Source: Pyronema omphalodes
Lineage: Eukaryota; Ascomycota; Pezizomycetes; Pezizales; Pyronemataceae
DNA: 64,000 bases
Direction of reading: 5' to 3'
NCBI GenBank assembly: GCA_024516155.1
Contig: JAJJXM010000055.1
Span: 186,001 to 250,000, forward strand
Both the position numbers and the translations under genes were made by a program. The notes beneath the pieces were generated by a model. That model was not told the DNA's origin. It made no database searches and saw nothing but the letters and a program-made list of their open reading frames with translations. Positions 753 to 11,057 of the stretch are shown here, one piece after another. The stretch's first letter is position 1. Each line of letters starts with the position of its first letter.

Positions 753-2297
753 CGGGGCGTTCGTTAGTGGTGTTGCTGAATTGAACACGTAGGAGAAAAC
801 AAGCGTTTTTTGTTAGGGTCTGTTATTAAGTACATTTTTAAATGGTTTTTTTAGAGCGGGGGAAGGGTTGGTTGGTTAGTTGGGCACAATATTATTTCGG
901 GTTTTTTTTTTAGTTTATCTTTTCTAGCATCAATTTTTTAGGGAAATGAGTTTTTCTTATTTTTAATCTTTTCTTTGTCTTTTTTTTCTTCTTCGGCAGA
1001 TTCGTAGGGTCGTAATAGGGTGGAGTGAATATTGGGTTTAATAGTGGATGCTGGGGGAAGTAAATTGAAGTCGGAGAGATACAGATAAATGGGTCTTCTA
1101 AGGATAGAAAGCATCATTCGTTTGAAAACTAGGATATAAATGCCATTTTTCGAAAGGTATCATTTTAAACAAAAAATTCGTACAGCCTGGATATGTCTGA
1201 TTTATTTTTCAACCCAGTCCGTTGGATGTTTGGAAATGAAGTTCCCCAACAGGTGTTTGTGCATAAGCCACGCAACTGACGCGCGGGAACACAGCAAGCG
1301 CAAGCGAGCGCGATACGATGCAGCCACTGCAGTATATTGAGAAACTTTTGAGATTCATCTATTTTTCTGCTCATTATGATCAGCTTCTGTTTGTTGGAAT
1401 ACATTTTTGATACTTCCAGTTGTGATGGATTGGACTATGTACTTTGATAACTCTCGCTTCACGTTCACTAATCCTCACAATATCTGCGTTTCTCCATCAT
1501 CCTCCACTTCACCACCAACAATCGCCAGCTTCATCTTGAGTTTCTTCCTCTACCGAGTATGTTAAACCCGGACTGGCCTTGCCTTACAACCATGACACAC
1601 CATCCCGATGACTATACGGATATTCCAAGTTCCGAATTCCGACTTCTCCACCGCCCGAGTCGATACCGCCTGGATGCCACACAGCACTTCTTCAACGTCG
1701 CGGTTGGCCGTACTTTCATATCCTGTGCACAATTCATCACACTGTTTCCGGTTAGTTCACAATGTAGACACCCCACACAATTCCGCCTCGCTAATCTAAT
1801 TCAGACGGTATTCGGAGCACATCGAAGCGCACGGCGAAATCTCCACGGCGTCTCGTTGGATGAATCTTTTCCCGTCCCGGTAGGTTAAACTCCGCATCGA
1901 TATCCGGAGCAGCGGGCATGTCGTTGCCGAGGTTTGAAACGTCCTCTGTTCTCCGCACCGCTCGCTTCAAGCTTCGTCGTCCCCGAAGGCGACGTTTCAG
2001 GAACAAAGTTGCACCGCGCCTAGGCCCATCGGCTATCCACTGCGGTCATCGGTTGCTAGCGCTCATCGGACATCGACATCCTCGCTATCTAGCCATTTCG
2101 GGAATTGGATGACATATCTGGTGCGGGTTCTCCACATTTCGCTAGACCAGGGCCGCTAAAAACACAAGCTTGGGAAGACAAGACAAAGACGGCGCGGGAA
2201 AAAAATCACTCCCTCCTCTCCCTTCAGCAGCAGAAGCAGCAGCAGCAAGCAGCGCAGCTCCTCCGAGTCGCAACAGCCTGCGCATGTCCAATGTCAG
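753..2297. other. Intergenic region, SEY1 3' flank and upstream of the Zn2Cys6 gene
   Basis: No convincing gene. The left third is T-rich (runs near 905-1000) and fits a 3' untranslated region. An open frame at 1559-1888 (+) has no recognisable domain and no supporting splice structure. The stretch 2190-2260 is pyrimidine-rich, then CAG/AGC-rich, and is probably leader of the downstream gene. A stop at 2157-2159 closes the frame of the following start codon. Confidence 0.5.
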
Positions 2298-4254
2298 ATG
2301 TCGGTAGTGAGAAGAGGACCCGCTTCTAGGTCAAGGATTGGTACGTCACATCATTTGTTACTTCTCATGAGCTTCTCCAGCTCTCCGAATTACCCCGACT
2401 AATTATGATTCGCACGTGCAGCATGGTAAGTCCTACGAATGAACTCCCGGTTTGTTTCCAGGATGCGCGGGATGTTGGTTAACGCTACATATATAGCAAG
2501 AGATGTAGAGACCGCCATATCAAATGTAAGGATTCCGAAGACCAAGCTATTGACACGGGCTGACTAAATCTGGGCAGGCGACCAAAAACAGCCTTGCGAC
2601 AGATGCCAAAGGGACGGGGTAGCTTGTTCCTACGGCGATCAGACCACGTTTACTGTCAAAGGTAGGTGCTACCTTGATTGGAACTATGTTATGGATATTG
2701 CTAAACGTGCGCAGAATGGAGCCCCGAAGAAGTTGGTTTACCACGTATCGAGCTGGCAGTTGGCTTCGCGGTGGTTGACGGAATAGCTAGATCAGGTAAG
2801 GACACCATTGATTAATGGAACGTAGGACATAGCCCTGACAGAAATAAGCTTCATACCAGTTTGTCAACGAAACACCCATTATCGAGGACCAGTACATTAT
2901 CACAACCGAGACGCTCTCCCCAGTGTTATCACCAACAATATTACAGCATAAACGTACTCCATCAGTAGCTCTATCCTCACCGTCACCTTCCGCACAATAC
3001 TTGCCTCTCTACCGACCTTCCAAACCTGTTACTTCTGAGCTCGATGCATTCTTTCTTGATCGATATTGCCATATCGTTGGGCCATGGTTCGACCTGCTCG
3101 ATTCCGAGCAACATTTCTCATATGTTGTACCTCACCTAGCACTATCACACCCGCTACTACTTCTATCCGGCCTGGCGTGCGCAGCTAAACAATACTACCT
3201 TACGTCGACACAACGCGGAGATACAGCCTTTGCTTACTATGATGATGCACTGCGCATGCTTACGGCTGCACTAGAAGATGTTTCACGTTCCTCATCGACC
3301 GCTGTCTTTGCTTCCTGCTTGCTGTTGGCTCATTGTGAGATGATTGATGCTAGTAACCAAGACTGGCATCTTCATCTTAGCGGTACCTATTCTCTTGTCT
3401 CTACGCAAGGCTGGAATGGTCGTAGTGGAGGGCTATCTCAAGCGTGTTTCTGGATCTACTGCCGTATGGACGTTTTGTCTTCTCTCGCAACTGCTACACC
3501 GACACGGCTAGACACATCAGTCTGGCTTCCAGGTGACGACGTACAACCTGCAGGTGGATGGACTGTAGACAGCTGGTCAAACTACGTTGTGCTTCTTCTA
3601 GCCCAAGTTCACAATTTACTCTGTCGGGTACGACGGCACCATCCTCCTTCAACTGCACTCTTCGAAGAATGGAATTCGCTGCAGGAACGTATTCTAATTC
3701 ACGAAAGACGAGCACCATGGCAATTCCAGCCACTTGCTCTGCTACAGCCAGACCTACTAAACGAAGAGAACCCTTTTTGCTCGACTCGATACGTCAGTGA
3801 TGCAGTGTGTGCAGGCGCCCAGATGTTTGATCTGACGAGGTTTCTGCTGATTCTTGCTCGGCCTGAGAATACAAGAAGTGAGCGTATGTCACGATTTGCA
3901 AGCCAGGAGGAAGTAGCCACGCGGTTTGTTGATGCGGTTATTGCTAATAGTGTCTTCAACCGTCGAGATATCAGCTGGGTTAATGCAGTGCAGCTACTAA
4001 CCTCCGCTGGTCTTGCCTTGGTTGGTTGGCCAAAGAGAAAGGCTTTACTGAGATGTCTTCTGGATATTCATGCCCGTACTGGTTGGAATACTAAAGGAAA
4101 TGTCGATAGACTATTAGATTGGTGGGGATGGACAACACCACTCCGGGAACGTGGCTTGGAATGGAGAGATGTGAATGAAGAGGTTGGGTATGTTGAGACT
4201 GTTCATGGGTGGCTTGGAAGAGTTTTTGAGTTGAATTATCAGGCGATAATATAG
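2298..4254 (+). CDS. Zn(II)2Cys6 transcription factor with Fungal_trans_2-like (ARCA-like) domain; contains a 4-nt exon
   Basis: Nuclear DNA-binding regulator. Exons: 2298-2340, 2422-2425, 2497-2525, 2578-2661, 2715-2795, 2849-4254; 548 aa. The joined N-terminus gives a perfect binuclear cluster, C16-x2-C19-x6-C26-x5-C32-x2-C35-x6-C42, in the context IACKRCRDRHIKCDQ. Ala15 and Cys16 come from a four-base exon (CATG) between two canonical introns (GTACGT...GTGCAG and GTAAGT...TATAG). Without it the first zinc ligand is lost. The rest resembles the Fungal_trans_2/ARCA-like regulators, with a segment around LDAFFLDRYCHIVGPWFDLL and the conserved HPLLLLSGLACAAKQY helix region. The start is the only ATG in the open frame after the stop at 2157-2159. 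Targets are unknown; the nearest downstream gene is a sugar transporter on the same strand, but a link is inference only. Confidence 0.85.
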
Positions 4255-6268
4255 GCATGGCCCAGAACTTTATTTTGTGGATTTGGTGAAGTTGGAACTT
4301 AGTTGGATATGTTATACCCTGAAATCTGTTTTTTTTTTTGTCGTTGGCAGCGTGGCGTTGGATTCGGAATTCAATTTCCGGTGTTCTTGTCTGTTTTTTT
4401 GTTTTTTTTTGTGGTTTATTATCTGGATTAATGGAATGAATTATGGCCCTGGTACTCGGGGAAAGTTACTCCCCCGGGCCTGGTCACATGTTACCCGTTT
4501 CGCCCCGATGAACCATTGTTTCGGGTCCAAGACTGGCAGTGAGCTCGTACATATGGTGCATACATATGGTGATTGCCTGGACATAATGAATCGAAGTTCT
4601 AGAACTTTTCTGCCTGTCTGTCTTGCGATCTTCCTGACCACCATCATCTCATCATATTGCTTCTGAAATTGCCTAGACATATGTACAAACTGCATCATCG
4701 GAAACTTTACCCTGGTTGTATATATATGGTTTTTGTGGGGAATAGGGAGGTTTGTATAGTATGTAGAGGTTGCTTTTATGTATGGGGGAAATGGAATTGG
4801 GGATGTCTTGTCTATTTCTTTTTTTTTTTTTTTTTTTGTTTTTTGGGGGGTAAGAGAACGGGGAGATTATACCGCGACTGGAGCCTTGGGGCTGGAGGAT
4901 TGCTTATCGATTCTTCTACTTTTATTTCACTTTAATTTGACTATGTATGTATGTATCTATTATTCACCCATGGCATTATAGCTATATTCATGATCGCACA
5001 ACCCCCCAGCGCTTCCTTCGAGAATCATTCATATACACATCCGTATATTTATTTCATAGCTAAAATCACGTTGCACCATATGATTATGTTGCACCATATT
5101 ATAGTGTTATGCTCGTTGTTTCAAAACTTAACTTTCAACTTCCTATGCTTTGGATTGGATACCCGGAAGGTAATTCCCCCCGTTACTCCTCGTCGCTCGT
5201 CGCTCGGTGCAATCCGATGCCTGCCTGCCTGCTATGTAATCCAGCACCAGCTAACCCAACACCAGCTAACCAAACTCCAATTAACCGTGCTAACCCAACA
5301 CCAGCTAACCCAGCAACAGCACCAGCTAACCCATCCAAGCCAAGCGCGGGAACGGAGTCGGAAGGAAGTCCACCCCGAGACCCCGTAACGTTAGCGCGAT
5401 GTAGGGGGGGTTAGCGGATGATCTTCGGCTCGGCGGTGGATGGTGGATGGTTTGTTATGGATTTTGGGTGCTGGGGTGCTGGGTGCTGGGTTATTGGGAG
5501 CTTTCCTGTCATGGGGTATTTACGGGGGAAATGCTTTTGTATACGCTATGATATTGAAGAGGTGGGATTGATGAGGTTTGTGGATAGTATGGGGTTTTCG
5601 GGTTTGTATGCACTACGTAGGGACGAATTTGGAGAATGGAGATGCTGAAGGGATAGGGATAGGGAATGGGTATCTGGGGGGTTTTTTTTTGATCTTTTTG
5701 ATTTGGATGGATTTTTTTTCTTTTGCTTCAATCCTAAGCCTGTTTGTTATAAGCTTTCTGTATAGTAACATGGACTATAGACTACCATCATATGGTGTAT
5801 AGAAGTAAACCCCAAAATTTCCATGCGCAGGAATCATACATAGTCCAGTGAACCGGTGGTCCAGTTTCCAGTGGCCATTTCTCGGTAACGAATCTCGGGG
5901 AAAGGGGTATGCATACCGGGGTAAACTGTGGAGTGTGGGGATACAGATGCGGAGTATGGGGTCCCCAGTCTTAAGTCTCAAGGCAGCTGTTTACGCGAGC
6001 TGCAGAAAACGATAGGGTGCATTATTATACATAGTACAATTTTTGTAGAAATTAGTGCCCAACCGGTAATAAACTATCGCCTTGATATCGCTTGGGGGGT
6101 GTCATGTATAAGACTGACGGTGATTCCGTGATCTTTTTTATGCACTGTACTTTTTGATAAACTTCGCTGCTTCCTGTCTTCGTCGGTGTTGGCTTTGGAA
6201 ATATACGACTTTTTTTTTACCCTTTTCTTTTTTATTTTACAAAGGGCATTTGGGATATTATTGGCAAG
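4255..6268. other. Intergenic region with low-complexity sequence
   Basis: No gene supported. It contains a T run near 4819-4839, a degenerate CCAGCTAACC minisatellite at about 5238-5332, G/T-rich stretches at 5440-5700 and a T-rich segment before the transporter start. The right end is the presumed promoter of the MFS gene. Confidence 0.5.
5238..5332. repeat. Degenerate minisatellite, unit about 15 bp (CACCAGCTAACCCAA)
   Basis: Repeated imperfect copies of the CAGCTAACCCAACAC pattern are visible, with internal variants such as CCAATTAACC and GTGCTAACCC. No coding role is seen. Confidence 0.6.
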
Positions 6269-7900
6269 ATGGGGCTTTCTTGGGGACTTACCCCGTATAC
6301 TATGACCATGGGGGGTCTGAGAGGTACAGCTCTGCAGTTAGCTGTTGCATCGATTGGTATGTTTTATTTCTTAATTCCTCAATTTTTAGCAATGTCATTG
6401 CATCAATAAATCAACCTACTGACGAAAAAAAAAACAGCCACATGTGCCTTTTGGCTATTCGGATACGACATGTCAGTAATGGGCGCATTAATCACCGAAG
6501 AATCCTTCCTTTCCGTATTCCCCGAAACCAGAAACGCAACAACCCTCGGAATCACCATTGCAGTTCTCGAACTCGGTGCTCTTATCGGTGCTCTTGCGTG
6601 TCTCGACATCGGAGATCGTCTTGGTCGTCGTATGACTGTGTTTATCGGAATGGGGTTTATGCTTGTTGGAGGTGCACTCCAGGCTTCGGCTTGGGGGTTG
6701 GGACAAATGATTGCTGGACGCATTTTATCCGGTGTTGGGCTAGGACTACAGGTTGCTACTATTCCTTCATGGCAGTCGGAATGTGCTAAGCCTACCTCTC
6801 GCGGAAAATGGGTTATGATTGAGGGAGGACTACAGACTACTGGTGTTGCTTGTGGACAGTGGGTTGGATATGGTTTCTTCTTTGTCACAGGACAACTACA
6901 GTGGAGAATGCCGGTGGCGATTCAACTTATCCCCGCCGCTATTGTCTTCTTCTTCATCATGTTCCTTCCCGAGTCTCCTAGATGGCTTATCAAGAAGGGA
7001 AAGTTCGAAGAGGGAGTTTACAACCTCTGTGCCCTCCGCGGATTACCAGAAGATGACCCAGCCCTAATCGAAGAGCGGGACGCCATCTTCGCCAGTTTCG
7101 AAGCCCAAAAATCCGAAGCCCCCTTCCAACTAAAGGAACTATTCCAGCAGGGCAACACCCAAACCTTCCGTCGTGTCTGTCTTGCATTCTTTATCCAATC
7201 CGCTCAACAGCTCTCAGGAATCAACCTGGTATCAACCTACGCAAACCAAATCCTTCGCACCTCCTTTAACCTCGACACCGGCCTCTCCCATCTCATCGCC
7301 GCCGCTGGAGGAACAGAATACGCAATCTGCTCTATCCTCTCTGTTCTCCTTATCGAAGGTCTCGGTCGTCGTCGCGCTTTCATGATCACCGCCGGTGGTA
7401 TGACCGTTTGTTTCGTCATCATATCCATTCTTCTATCCACCGGGCAACGAACCCCTCAGCTCGTAGCAGCCGGATTCCTATTTCTATTCAACACGTTCTT
7501 CGGACTAGCCTGGGTTGGAGGACCATTTTTATACTCTGCAGAAATTGCACCTCTTCGTTCCAGGGCTGCTGTAAACGGTGTTGCTTCCGCGGCGAATTGG
7601 ATCTTTTGTTTCCTGGTCGTTATGACCATTCCAACTTCTTTTGCTACGATTGGTTGGAAAACTTATATCGTCTATGCGGTGCTTAATGCTGCGTTTATGC
7701 CCATTATTTACTTCTTCTTGGTGGAGACGAAGGGTAGGTCTTTGGAGGAGTTGGATGTGATTTTTGCGGCTCCTGGTGACCCTGTTAAGAATGAGAAGAG
7801 TATGCCGAAGAATATTGATATTCATGAGGCGAGAAGAGTTCTGGGATTGAGGAATGGAAGTGATGATGAGAAGAGTATGGAGGTTGAGATGAAGGCGTAA
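6269..7900 (+). CDS. MFS sugar-porter family transporter
   Basis: Plasma-membrane major facilitator of the sugar porter family, about 516 aa, with 12 predicted helices. Exons 6269-6356 and 6438-7900; the intron (81 nt, GTATGT...AACAG) splits the codon giving SIATCAFWLFGYDMS. Family signatures are in order: a GDRLGRR loop between TM2 and TM3, the AGRILSGVGLGLQ segment, PESPRWLIKKGK after TM6, QQLSGINLVSTYANQI in TM7, a GLGRRRAF loop and VETKGRSLEELD after TM12. The start at 6269 gives the usual short N-terminus before TM1; the first downstream ATG (6470) would lose TM1. Substrate cannot be read from sequence; hexose, disaccharide or quinate-like substrates are all possible. The tail after TM12 is charged and short. 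Confidence 0.9.
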
Positions 7901-8647
7901 TGTGGAGGGGTTTAATGATGATGTAGATGATAATGTTTTTCCTTGTCTTTTTTTTTGTTGCTTTTGTTTAGCATTGTAGAGATATGGTTATTGGGGTCAA
8001 TATATTCTGGTTGATCAGATTAAATCTTCTTTTCTTCGTGTGGTTTGTAAAACTGTGAATATCTAGAGAAATTCCCTTCCTCAAGTGGGTATCAAGCAGA
8101 AACTGTTTTTCCACAACTGCCTACAACCAAGCATTTTCCAAAAACCTCCTCTCAAACTTCTCCACATAAAACCTCAAATAGAAAAAACCACATCATCTCT
8201 CCAATCCGAATTCCCCGCAACAATCAAACTACAATCCCCCAAACACAAATACAATCTATTATTGCAGTCGCAAAACGCATCCACATCCACATTCAAAGCT
8301 CAAATCTAAATTTTCCGTCATATTCTACGCCTATTCCATCAGCTCCCTGCATGGAATATACATATGCAACTAAAACATTCCCCGCTCACAAAACATACTC
8401 CACCGGGGAAACAAAAACTGATCATCTCTGATTACTTCCGGATTCAGGTAGCTGATATGATATGATATATCCCGAGGCTTTTCCCTGGATTCCTAGACCC
8501 CTAGCTTCCATTAATATGGCCTGGAAAGGATTTTCATGGATTCGGCATAAGAAAAAAGAAAAGAAAAGAAAGGTCATCTAGGCCAGGAACTCGGAAATGC
8601 TGGATTAGCTTGATACATATCCACAAATATCCCACTATATTCGTTTC

Positions 8648-8674
8648 TGTATGTATGTATGTATGTATGTATGT
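8648..8674. repeat. (GTAT)n microsatellite
   Basis: About six uninterrupted GTAT units are visible, followed by GTACC. Confidence 0.85.
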
Positions 8675-9204
8675 ACCATCATACACGCGAGAAAATACGA
8701 TGCCCAGCTGCATGTCCAGGGTACGTAGAATGATATCCTTGGATAAACCACGTTTTTTTTTTTTTGATACATACGTACATAAGTACATACTTTCCTACCG
8801 GATATAGAAATATTCCAGAACAATTTTTTCTATGAAGATCTTTATCGTAACTCTGTTGATTGTTTTTTTCGTTTCGGAGATTGTACATATATGCAAACCC
8901 AGACTTGAATATCTCGAAGGGATTAGAAGGGATTAGGGTATAGGGTTTAGTCGGCAGCGGGCACCGGGCAGCCAGCTCGGTTACGCTCAGCTTAGCATAA
9001 CTTAACCCTCCCCACATTCCCTTCTCCCGAAAGTCCAGCATCGCGGGGAAATTGTGGAGAAATCGTTATGTATGAAGCTTGAATTTTATGGGCGCCTTGG
9101 TAAAGACTCTCTCAGCTGAAGTTCAGTTTCCTTTTTCAGCACCACACTGTACCGGCTGAGCCGTTAGTTTCCCCGGGTGGTGAGGGTTAGGGTTTGGGGG
9201 TTTT

Positions 9205-9300
9205 ACTGTTGCTGGGTTGCTGTGTTGCTGGGACTTGCTGGGACTTGCTGGGGTTTGCCGGGGGCCTTGCTGGGCATGGCGGGGCTTTGCCGGGCTTTGC
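9205..9300. repeat. Degenerate TTGCTGGG / TTTGCCGGG repeat
   Basis: Several imperfect copies of a 9-11 bp motif (TTGCTGGGA, TTTGCCGGG, TTGCTGGGC) are arranged head to tail. Confidence 0.55.
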
Positions 9301-9630
9301 GAAAGACGGAAACTAGCAGGGGTAGCTAGCGATGTTCATCAGGATGGTAGGGAGCTCCGTGTCGCACGACCGCAGATGCGACCCCGCTGATGAACCGATG
9401 ACATACGGAGCATTGTCGCCTGGGCCACGAGTTTGAGAGAAACAATTCCGGGGGATATTCCTTCCGTGAACGCGTCCGGAGATTGAAGCTCCGCGCGCGA
9501 TGCTGGAAGTTTTGGTGCCGAGAGTTGTTGAAATATATATTCAAGAGCCTACGGTCTGACTGTGGAGGTTTTCTTTCAGTAACTTACGAAGAGGTGAATC
9601 TACGGAGCTGACGGAACGGAATTATACACA

Positions 9631-11057
9631 ATGGTTAATCAGTGGAATGGAAAGCCTTTGAGCATCAAGGTCCTTGGTACCAATGCTGGTATGAGCTCTC
9701 TACTCCTTCGATATTGATGAGCAATAGCTAACAGAAGTGTTGATAGGTACCTCTATGGACGGTCTTGATATTGCCCATATGCACTTTACTCAGGAACACC
9801 CCGAGGCCGTCCTCAAGATGGAGCTTCTCCACGCCGGAGAGGTTGCTTTCGACGGAGCTCTCAAGAGTACGTCTATCTACATTCTACCGCAGCAAGAACC
9901 CCATCTAGAACCCCGCTGACTGAAGAACAGAGCGTGTCATGAACCTCATCAAGACCAACAAGACCTCCCCCGAGGAGATTTCCATCGTCAACATCCAGCT
10001 CGGAGAGTTCGCCGCCGACGCCGTTATTACCTTCGCCAAAGAGCAGGGCTTCAACCTTCAAGAGGAGGTCGACATCATTGCCGGACAAGGACAGACCATC
10101 TGGCACTTACCCCTCCCCGAGATGTTCGAAGGAGACCAAGTCCGCGCTCACTTGGACATGGGAGAGATTGCCATGATTGCCGCTAAAACCGGAATCACCG
10201 CTCTCTCAGCATTCCGTGTTTCTGACATGGCACTCGGACGTCAAGGATGTCCTCTCTTCGTTGCCTGGGACTCTCTTTGCGCCACCCACCCCACCATGAA
10301 CCGCGCCGTCCAGAACATCGGAGGAATCGCAAACATCACTATGCTCCCCGCTGGTGACAAGAAGAAGGGATACGACTTCGACACTGGTCCAGGAAACGTC
10401 TTTATCGATGGAGCTATGCGTTTCTTCACCGAGGGAAAGATGCAGTATGACCGTGATGGTCTCTGGGGTGCCAAGGGAAAGGTTGACCAGGCTGTTGTCG
10501 ACGAGATGCTAGCCGGTCCTTACTTCGTCCATGATATCCCCAAGACCACTGGACGCGAGACCTTCGGTGATACCTGGGCTGAGGATATCTGCAAGTCCAT
10601 GCTTGCAAAGGGTGCCACCCCCGAGGACTGTGTTGCCACCATCACCCGTATCACTGCCAAGTCATTGGCGGATGGATACGAGCGCTGGGGACCCGAGGGA
10701 GGAATCGCAGAGATTTATCTCGGAGGAGGAGGATCTTACAACCCCAACATCATCAACTACCTCCGTGAGCGCTTCCCCAACACTAAGATTGACTTCCTTG
10801 ACAAGATTGGTATTCCCACTGGATCTCGTGAGGCTATGTCTTTCGGTTTCAAGGGTCTTGAATGCATTGTCGGACGCTCTTTGATTGTTCCTACCCATGT
10901 CGAGTCTGACAGGGCTGGTATCATCGGACAGATTCAACCTGGTTCGGGTGTTCAGTACCATAAGCTCATGAAGCACGTTCAGGACTTCTGGGGTGATTAC
11001 CCTATTGAGAAGCGTATGAACCCAGTTCTTGAGATGGAGGTTGTTGGACGTAAGTAA
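9631..11057 (+). CDS. Anhydro-N-acetylmuramic acid kinase (AnmK/UPF0075) homologue
   Basis: Cytosolic sugar kinase of the ASKHA fold. In bacteria, AnmK cleaves and phosphorylates 1,6-anhydro-MurNAc during cell-wall recycling. Exons 9631-9688, 9747-9866, 9931-11057; 434 aa. The diagnostic phosphate-binding start GTNAGTSMDGLD lies at residues 16-27 and is split by intron 1 inside the glycine codon before TSMDG. Further family motifs are DIIAGQGQTIWHLP, an RVSDMALGRQGCPL segment, QNIGGIANIT, DFDTGPGNVFID and AEIYLGGGGSYNPNI followed by GSREAMSFGF. Length is somewhat above bacterial AnmK. Fungi lack peptidoglycan, so the substrate here is unknown; scavenging of bacterial wall fragments or a different anhydro-sugar is inference. 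The family has members in other ascomycetes. Codon use is biased, with many GGA glycines, suggesting good expression. Confidence 0.9.

Follow-up and report, generated by a model that had tools for sequence, protein, structure and literature searches.

A putative four-nucleotide exon completes the first zinc ligand of a Zn2Cys6 regulator in a sugar-use neighbourhood of Pyronema omphalodes

The Trichoderma virens regulator Xlr2 carries a 20-nt microexon whose expression was found to be glucose-dependent by RNA-seq and RT-PCR, with exon 1 not joined directly to exon 3 in any read, according to the available part of that paper (PMC11121469). According to the same text, Xlr2 resembles the regulator described here in combining a Zn2Cys6 domain with a fungal regulatory domain, in having a non-triplet microexon that codes for cysteines of the DNA-binding domain and in its sugar-related function, and annotation had likewise missed its microexon (PMC11121469). 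The two exons differ in length (20 nt versus 4 nt) and in what they encode (two cysteines versus part of one), the regulatory domains differ as well (PF04082 versus PF11951), and expression of the Xlr2 exon was measured, whereas the CATG exon described here is predicted from sequence. In Rhizopus delemar, a two-amino-acid exon lies behind the missing sixth cysteine of the zinc-cluster factor I1CF81 in the CeGAL report, although this exon is larger than CATG and its support is computational only (PMC10141177, available portion). The one-nucleotide exon of CYP621A in Fusarium, supported by 20 orthologues and SRA reads, is like CATG an ultra-short fungal exon that restores the frame within a conserved motif, but it measures 1 nt and is located in a P450 (PMC12940212, accessible excerpt). 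Among plants, the one-nucleotide exon of Arabidopsis APC11 is also smaller than a codon and is constitutive, but it belongs to a plant gene in which GFP-fusion constructs were tested (PMC4674806, text in part). Small plant microexons share with CATG a length of at most 15 nt, conservation and frequent misannotation, but they concern plant genes and have 990 RNA-seq datasets behind them (PMC8831610, extract). Ultra-short fungal exons are already known from CYP621A, I1CF81 and Xlr2, and the CATG exon is notable for its size and position. Rhizopus belongs to another phylum. Judged against the literature compared, CATG would be one of the shortest coding exons so far put forward for a fungus, and a literature search combining microexon with the exact word Zn2Cys6 returned no paper.

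Here, we analysed a window of 64,000 nucleotides from P. omphalodes (contig JAJJXM010000055.1, positions 186,001 to 250,000 of the forward strand), and the features under study are listed in Table 1. We found that the original prediction had placed the CATG exon and both of its flanking introns correctly. Both introns have GT-AG borders and branch-like motifs, as it had claimed, and are near consensus; CATG stands between the canonical splice sites TGCAG and GTAAGT, which makes it an internal microexon by structure. It had also been said to encode part of Ala15 and Cys16, and precisely two of the three bases of each codon come from it. The spliced translation reads MSVVRRGPASRSRI-A-C-KRCRDRHIK..., with the cysteines spaced as C16-x2-C19-x6-C26-x5-C32-x2-C35-x6-C42. 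Zn_clus domains follow the spacing C-x2-C-x6-C-x5-12-C-x2-C-x6-9-C. The product fits this rule and matches Zn_clus (PF00172) at 36.5 bits over residues 15-48, above the Pfam cut-off of 21, and thus belongs to the Zn2Cys6 class; with a Pfam match to Fungal_trans_2 (PF11951; 62.5 bits, residues 148-363), it has the architecture of a Zn2Cys6 domain with a C-terminal PF11951. The cluster needs CATG, as predicted, but its completion also needs the removal of intron 3, which lies outside the span 2298..2525 that had been considered. The acceptor of exon 6 (ending at 2848) is AAG, which is unusual; the joined residues still agree with the deposited P. domesticum protein.

Table 1. Coordinates of the regulator gene and its sugar-related neighbours, as positions in the window
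Feature	Position	Strand	Details
Gene of Zn2Cys6-Fungal_trans_2 regulator	2298-4254	+	six joined exons give a 549-codon frame including stop; 548-aa product
Exon 1	2298..2340	+	codes MSVVRRGPASRSRI and base 1 of Ala15; family motif RGP[AS]SR in 19/20 aligned proteins
Intron 1	2341..2421	+	81 nt, GTACGT...TGCAG; branch-like ACTAAT 5′ of acceptor
Alternative weak donor GTCACA	2345..2350	+	joined to 2497 gives in-frame Gly-Thr for Ala15-Cys16; second-ranked form
Microexon CATG	2422..2425	+	4 nt; last two bases of Ala15 and first two of Cys16, which is the first zinc ligand
Intron 2	2426..2496	+	71 nt, GTAAGT...ATATAG; branch-like TTAAC
Exon 3	2497..2525	+	base 3 of Cys16, KRCRDRHIK, base 1 of Cys26
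Intron 3	2526..2577	+	52 nt; interrupts Cys26 codon (T|GC)
Exon 4	2578..2661	+	remainder of Cys26 through Lys53; ligands C32, C35, C42
Exon 5	2715..2795	+	agrees with P. domesticum protein P0001
Exon 6	2849..4254	+	Fungal_trans_2 domain and stop
Sugar transporter (Sugar_tr)	6410..7900	+	main open frame, stop to stop
Levoglucosan-kinase/AnmK-family sugar kinase	9631..11057	+	434 aa; introns 9689-9746, 9867-9930

Two ATGs were also observed upstream on the forward strand, opening a 7-codon frame at 2284 and a 12-codon frame at 2291, one in each of the other frames and together spanning 2284..2329. They are 7 bases apart, the second lies 7 bases from the main ATG, and both short reading frames overlap the main start, so that translational control separate from splicing is possible.

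We then compared the junction with deposited proteins. The P. domesticum protein FPQ18DRAFT_359281 has 548 residues, is 96% identical over 100% of the length and starts MSVVRRGPASRSRIACKRC, with the same residues at the junction as the CATG form. Because the length and the junction residues are the same, the deposited P. domesticum model very probably contains the four-base exon, and the expectation that exons of this kind mostly escape gene-finding programs fails for this closest relative. The 546-aa protein from Wilcoxina and the 525-aa protein from Geopyxis share the reading ...PASRSKIACKRC, with IACKRC at the junction. Cys16 was invariant in all 20 aligned relatives; the alignment comprised 20 of the 24 proteins found with PF00172 (69 proteins were found in all), P0029 and P0066-P0068 being left out. 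Enumeration of splice forms that contain no more than two GT-AG introns yielded 536 forms, of which 259 distinct products of at least 25 aa were scored against an orthologue profile built from 19 aligned proteins, with P. domesticum excluded and two of the 19 being Pyronemataceae. The CATG form ranked first with 86.8 bits, compared with 79.8 bits for the runner-up.

As a control, the 156-nt composite intron was subjected to 20,000 dinucleotide shuffles with the end signals kept and an internal exon of up to 30 nt allowed, under rules that were set after the site was seen. An x-Cys at the exact family spacing appeared in 196 shuffles with any GT/AG, in 19 with a loose donor and in 3 with GTRNGT donors, and in none of the 20,000 when consensus donors and branch motifs were demanded. 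When the exon could be of any length and the Cys only had to stand in frame ahead of KRC, the same series of rules gave 1163, 104, 26 and 1 shuffles. No relative of this locus was found in viral contigs with the P. domesticum protein as query, or in the genome and viral contigs with the 20-sequence alignment. When the genome was searched for a further copy of the gene, seven matches came up, three of which were the regulator gene itself and the others distant; the nearest of these others (L019) is 28% identical and has an uninterrupted frame. From the deposited proteins, the alignment, the profile ranking and the shuffles, we consider the four-nucleotide exon CATG very probably real.

To place the exon among other zinc-cluster genes, the genome (60.8 Mb, 232 contigs) was searched for the family, and 44 zinc-cluster matches were obtained, from which the regulator at 2298-4254 was absent. 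Having passed over this gene, the search would also overlook other clusters divided among short exons, and we therefore make no claim of uniqueness. All 44 matches were translated, and 13 with a frame break near the first cysteines were chosen. With introns of up to 200 nt allowed, one intron of 51-119 nt completed 11 of the 13, some with weak donors, while L037 had no solution and L054 was better completed with a 6-nt microexon (30.4 versus 24.0 bits). When longer introns were allowed, L054 was completed by one 224-nt intron at 38.7 bits and L037 by one 274-nt intron at 37.6 bits. None of the 13 other zinc-cluster genes with an early frame break needs a microexon. The introns of these two genes also rule out the argument that a single intron of 156 nt would be too long. 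In this generic screen, the CATG form of the regulator led on the raw as well as the combined score, with a raw gain of only 1.9 bits over the best one-intron form, which has no start codon. However, raw bits often slightly favour microexon forms because of their extra freedom, and at the 11 loci that a single intron completes, spurious microexon forms came out ahead by as much as 2.4 bits, so that the generic screen alone does not discriminate. The ranking by orthologue profile is the stronger test.

We further examined what other splicing of the region would produce. Skipping of CATG gives MSVVRRGPASRSRI followed by a frameshift and a stop after 38 codons, and this product carries no Pfam domain, which bears out the expectation that loss of CATG destroys the cluster. 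Retention of either intron runs into stops. In-frame methionines occur at residues 1, 217, 245 and later. No isoform lacking the DNA-binding domain alone is expected, because the next in-frame methionine, 217, lies inside the Fungal_trans_2 match, and no such alternative form of the Xlr2 type was found. With the frameshift and no suitable downstream methionine, skipping would therefore be a plain loss of function. The claim that a cluster appears only if CATG is included holds for the forms with a start codon, but two start-less forms also read CKRC. One of them, the join of 2340 to 2497 read in another frame, gives D-C-K-R-C, and this frame is untranslatable because an upstream TAG ends at 2329 and no ATG follows it. 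The other, in which intron 2 alone is removed, reads ...FARAACKRC, with stops just upstream and no ATG after them. A single in-frame one-intron alternative to the CATG form exists, with an intron at 2345-2496.

As can be read from the bases themselves, exon 1 gives the conserved RGPASRS arm, CATG restores the frame and adds Ala-Cys, and exon 3 carries the cluster on. In fungi, most introns are recognised as whole units (intron definition), and a Schizosaccharomyces pombe paper reportedly has intron definition as its subject. The introns of 81 and 71 nt are of ordinary size, and each may be recognised singly in this way. Because an acceptor and a strong donor stand four bases apart, where two spliceosomes cannot easily sit together, the two introns would be removed sequentially, and CATG would thus be included constitutively. 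Failed inclusion would yield a frameshifted, non-functional mRNA and no regulated isoform. The gene neighbourhood suggests that the regulator controls the neighbouring sugar transporter and the kinase of the levoglucosan-kinase family. We assign a probability of about 0.8 to this reading, in which three exons together encode the first zinc ligand, with CATG alone as the middle one and constitutively included, and the regulator controls the adjacent transporter and kinase. An exon that divides the codon of an essential zinc ligand would serve well for testing both intron definition and annotation methods, because without CATG the gene loses its DNA-binding domain and would seem to encode a regulatory domain only.

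Alternatively, inclusion of CATG might vary with carbon source or development, which would turn the factor on or off through frameshift and mRNA decay as in Trichoderma Xlr2. That precedent makes regulation of the exon possible, as the 20-nt exon of Xlr2 codes for two cysteines in the same type of domain and is expressed without glucose in the available portion of the report (PMC11121469); skipping or retention at CATG would abolish the zinc cluster, and the regulator is set in a sugar-use neighbourhood. However, both donors are near consensus, which suggests efficient splicing, and there is no downstream methionine that would give an isoform without the DNA-binding domain alone. We regard a regulated switch as unlikely, and constitutive inclusion of CATG appears most likely. 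That carbon source tunes the inclusion of CATG and thereby gates an anhydrosugar regulon (regulator, transporter and levoglucosan-type kinase) in a fire-associated fungus seems decidedly improbable; if it were true, a splicing decision on four bases would decide the use of sugars from pyrolysed cellulose.

It is still less probable that the apparent exon is an accident, the true transcript having a different first exon or the gene being in decay. The locus offers many alternative splice pairs, as the number of enumerated forms shows, and when nothing beyond bare GT/AG was required, 18,073 of the 20,000 shuffles gave some microexon of at most 30 nt, but the RGPASRS arm, the exact cysteine spacing, the intact 548-codon frame and the nearly identical full-length protein deposited for P. 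domesticum all speak against it. The least probable reading is a decoy form in which the donor at 2345 is joined to 2497, giving a DNA-binding-dead protein of the same length. This form is in frame, free of stops and second-best in profile score, but the better donor GTACGT is 4 bases away from its own weak one, and the Gly-Thr sequence occurs in none of the 20 aligned proteins.

The kinase model was picked from six open models by its NAGTSMDG motif. Its main exon matched levoglucosan kinase (4yh5) at 374 bits and bacterial AnmK at 145 bits, and is thus closer to levoglucosan kinase. A second kinase of the family was found in the same genome (L020, G000:C124:501067-502303), with two exons 44-45% identical to the window kinase; its first exon matched levoglucosan kinase at 289 bits over 223 residues, which is more per residue than the window kinase. 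Because of this stronger match, an anhydrosugar is only our best guess for the substrate of the window kinase. Four deposited models, two from Aspergillus lentulus and one each from A. fumigatus and Saxophila, fuse a related kinase to the regulatory domain of this regulator, and their kinase parts share 68, 67, 67 and 62% identity with the kinase of the window. They are probably run-on annotation errors joining adjacent genes, and the linkage of regulator and kinase is therefore probably old. The fused Aspergillus and Saxophila models P0034, P0043, P0046 and P0047 are missing the zinc cluster wholly or in part. In P0073 (A. fumigatiaffinis), a kinase of another branch, 50% identical, is joined to a different regulatory domain, PF04082.

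A massive response to fire has been reported for Pyronema (PMC7055920, available portion). The adjoining regulator, transporter and kinase at 2298-11057 of the window are a candidate cluster for anhydrosugar use in this fire-associated genus, and the neighbourhood would supply a candidate regulator, transporter and kinase for such use in Pyronema. Searches of the accessible literature returned no paper linking levoglucosan with Pyronema and none on levoglucosan, transcription factor, gene cluster and fungi together, and the word levoglucosan is absent from the available parts of PMC8579045 and PMC3778014. Binding sites of the CGG type were searched with all spacings from 0 to 18. CGG-N11-CCG occurs at 1878 and 1913 upstream of the regulator and at 9477 before the kinase, among 11 occurrences in the whole window, and a Gal4-like palindrome, CGGAG-N7-CTCCG, lies at 9477-9493, about 140 bases 5′ of the kinase start. 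The palindrome occurs 166 times in the genome compared with 129 for the reversed control, which is not clearly above background, and we rejected these sites as evidence. Among the palindrome matches listed for this genome (G000, e.g. C2, C7, C12, C28 and C35), the 17-mer CGGAGTGATCCACTCCG appears repeatedly, as such or as its reverse complement, often in pairs about 7.5 kb apart, which are perhaps the ends of a repeated element.
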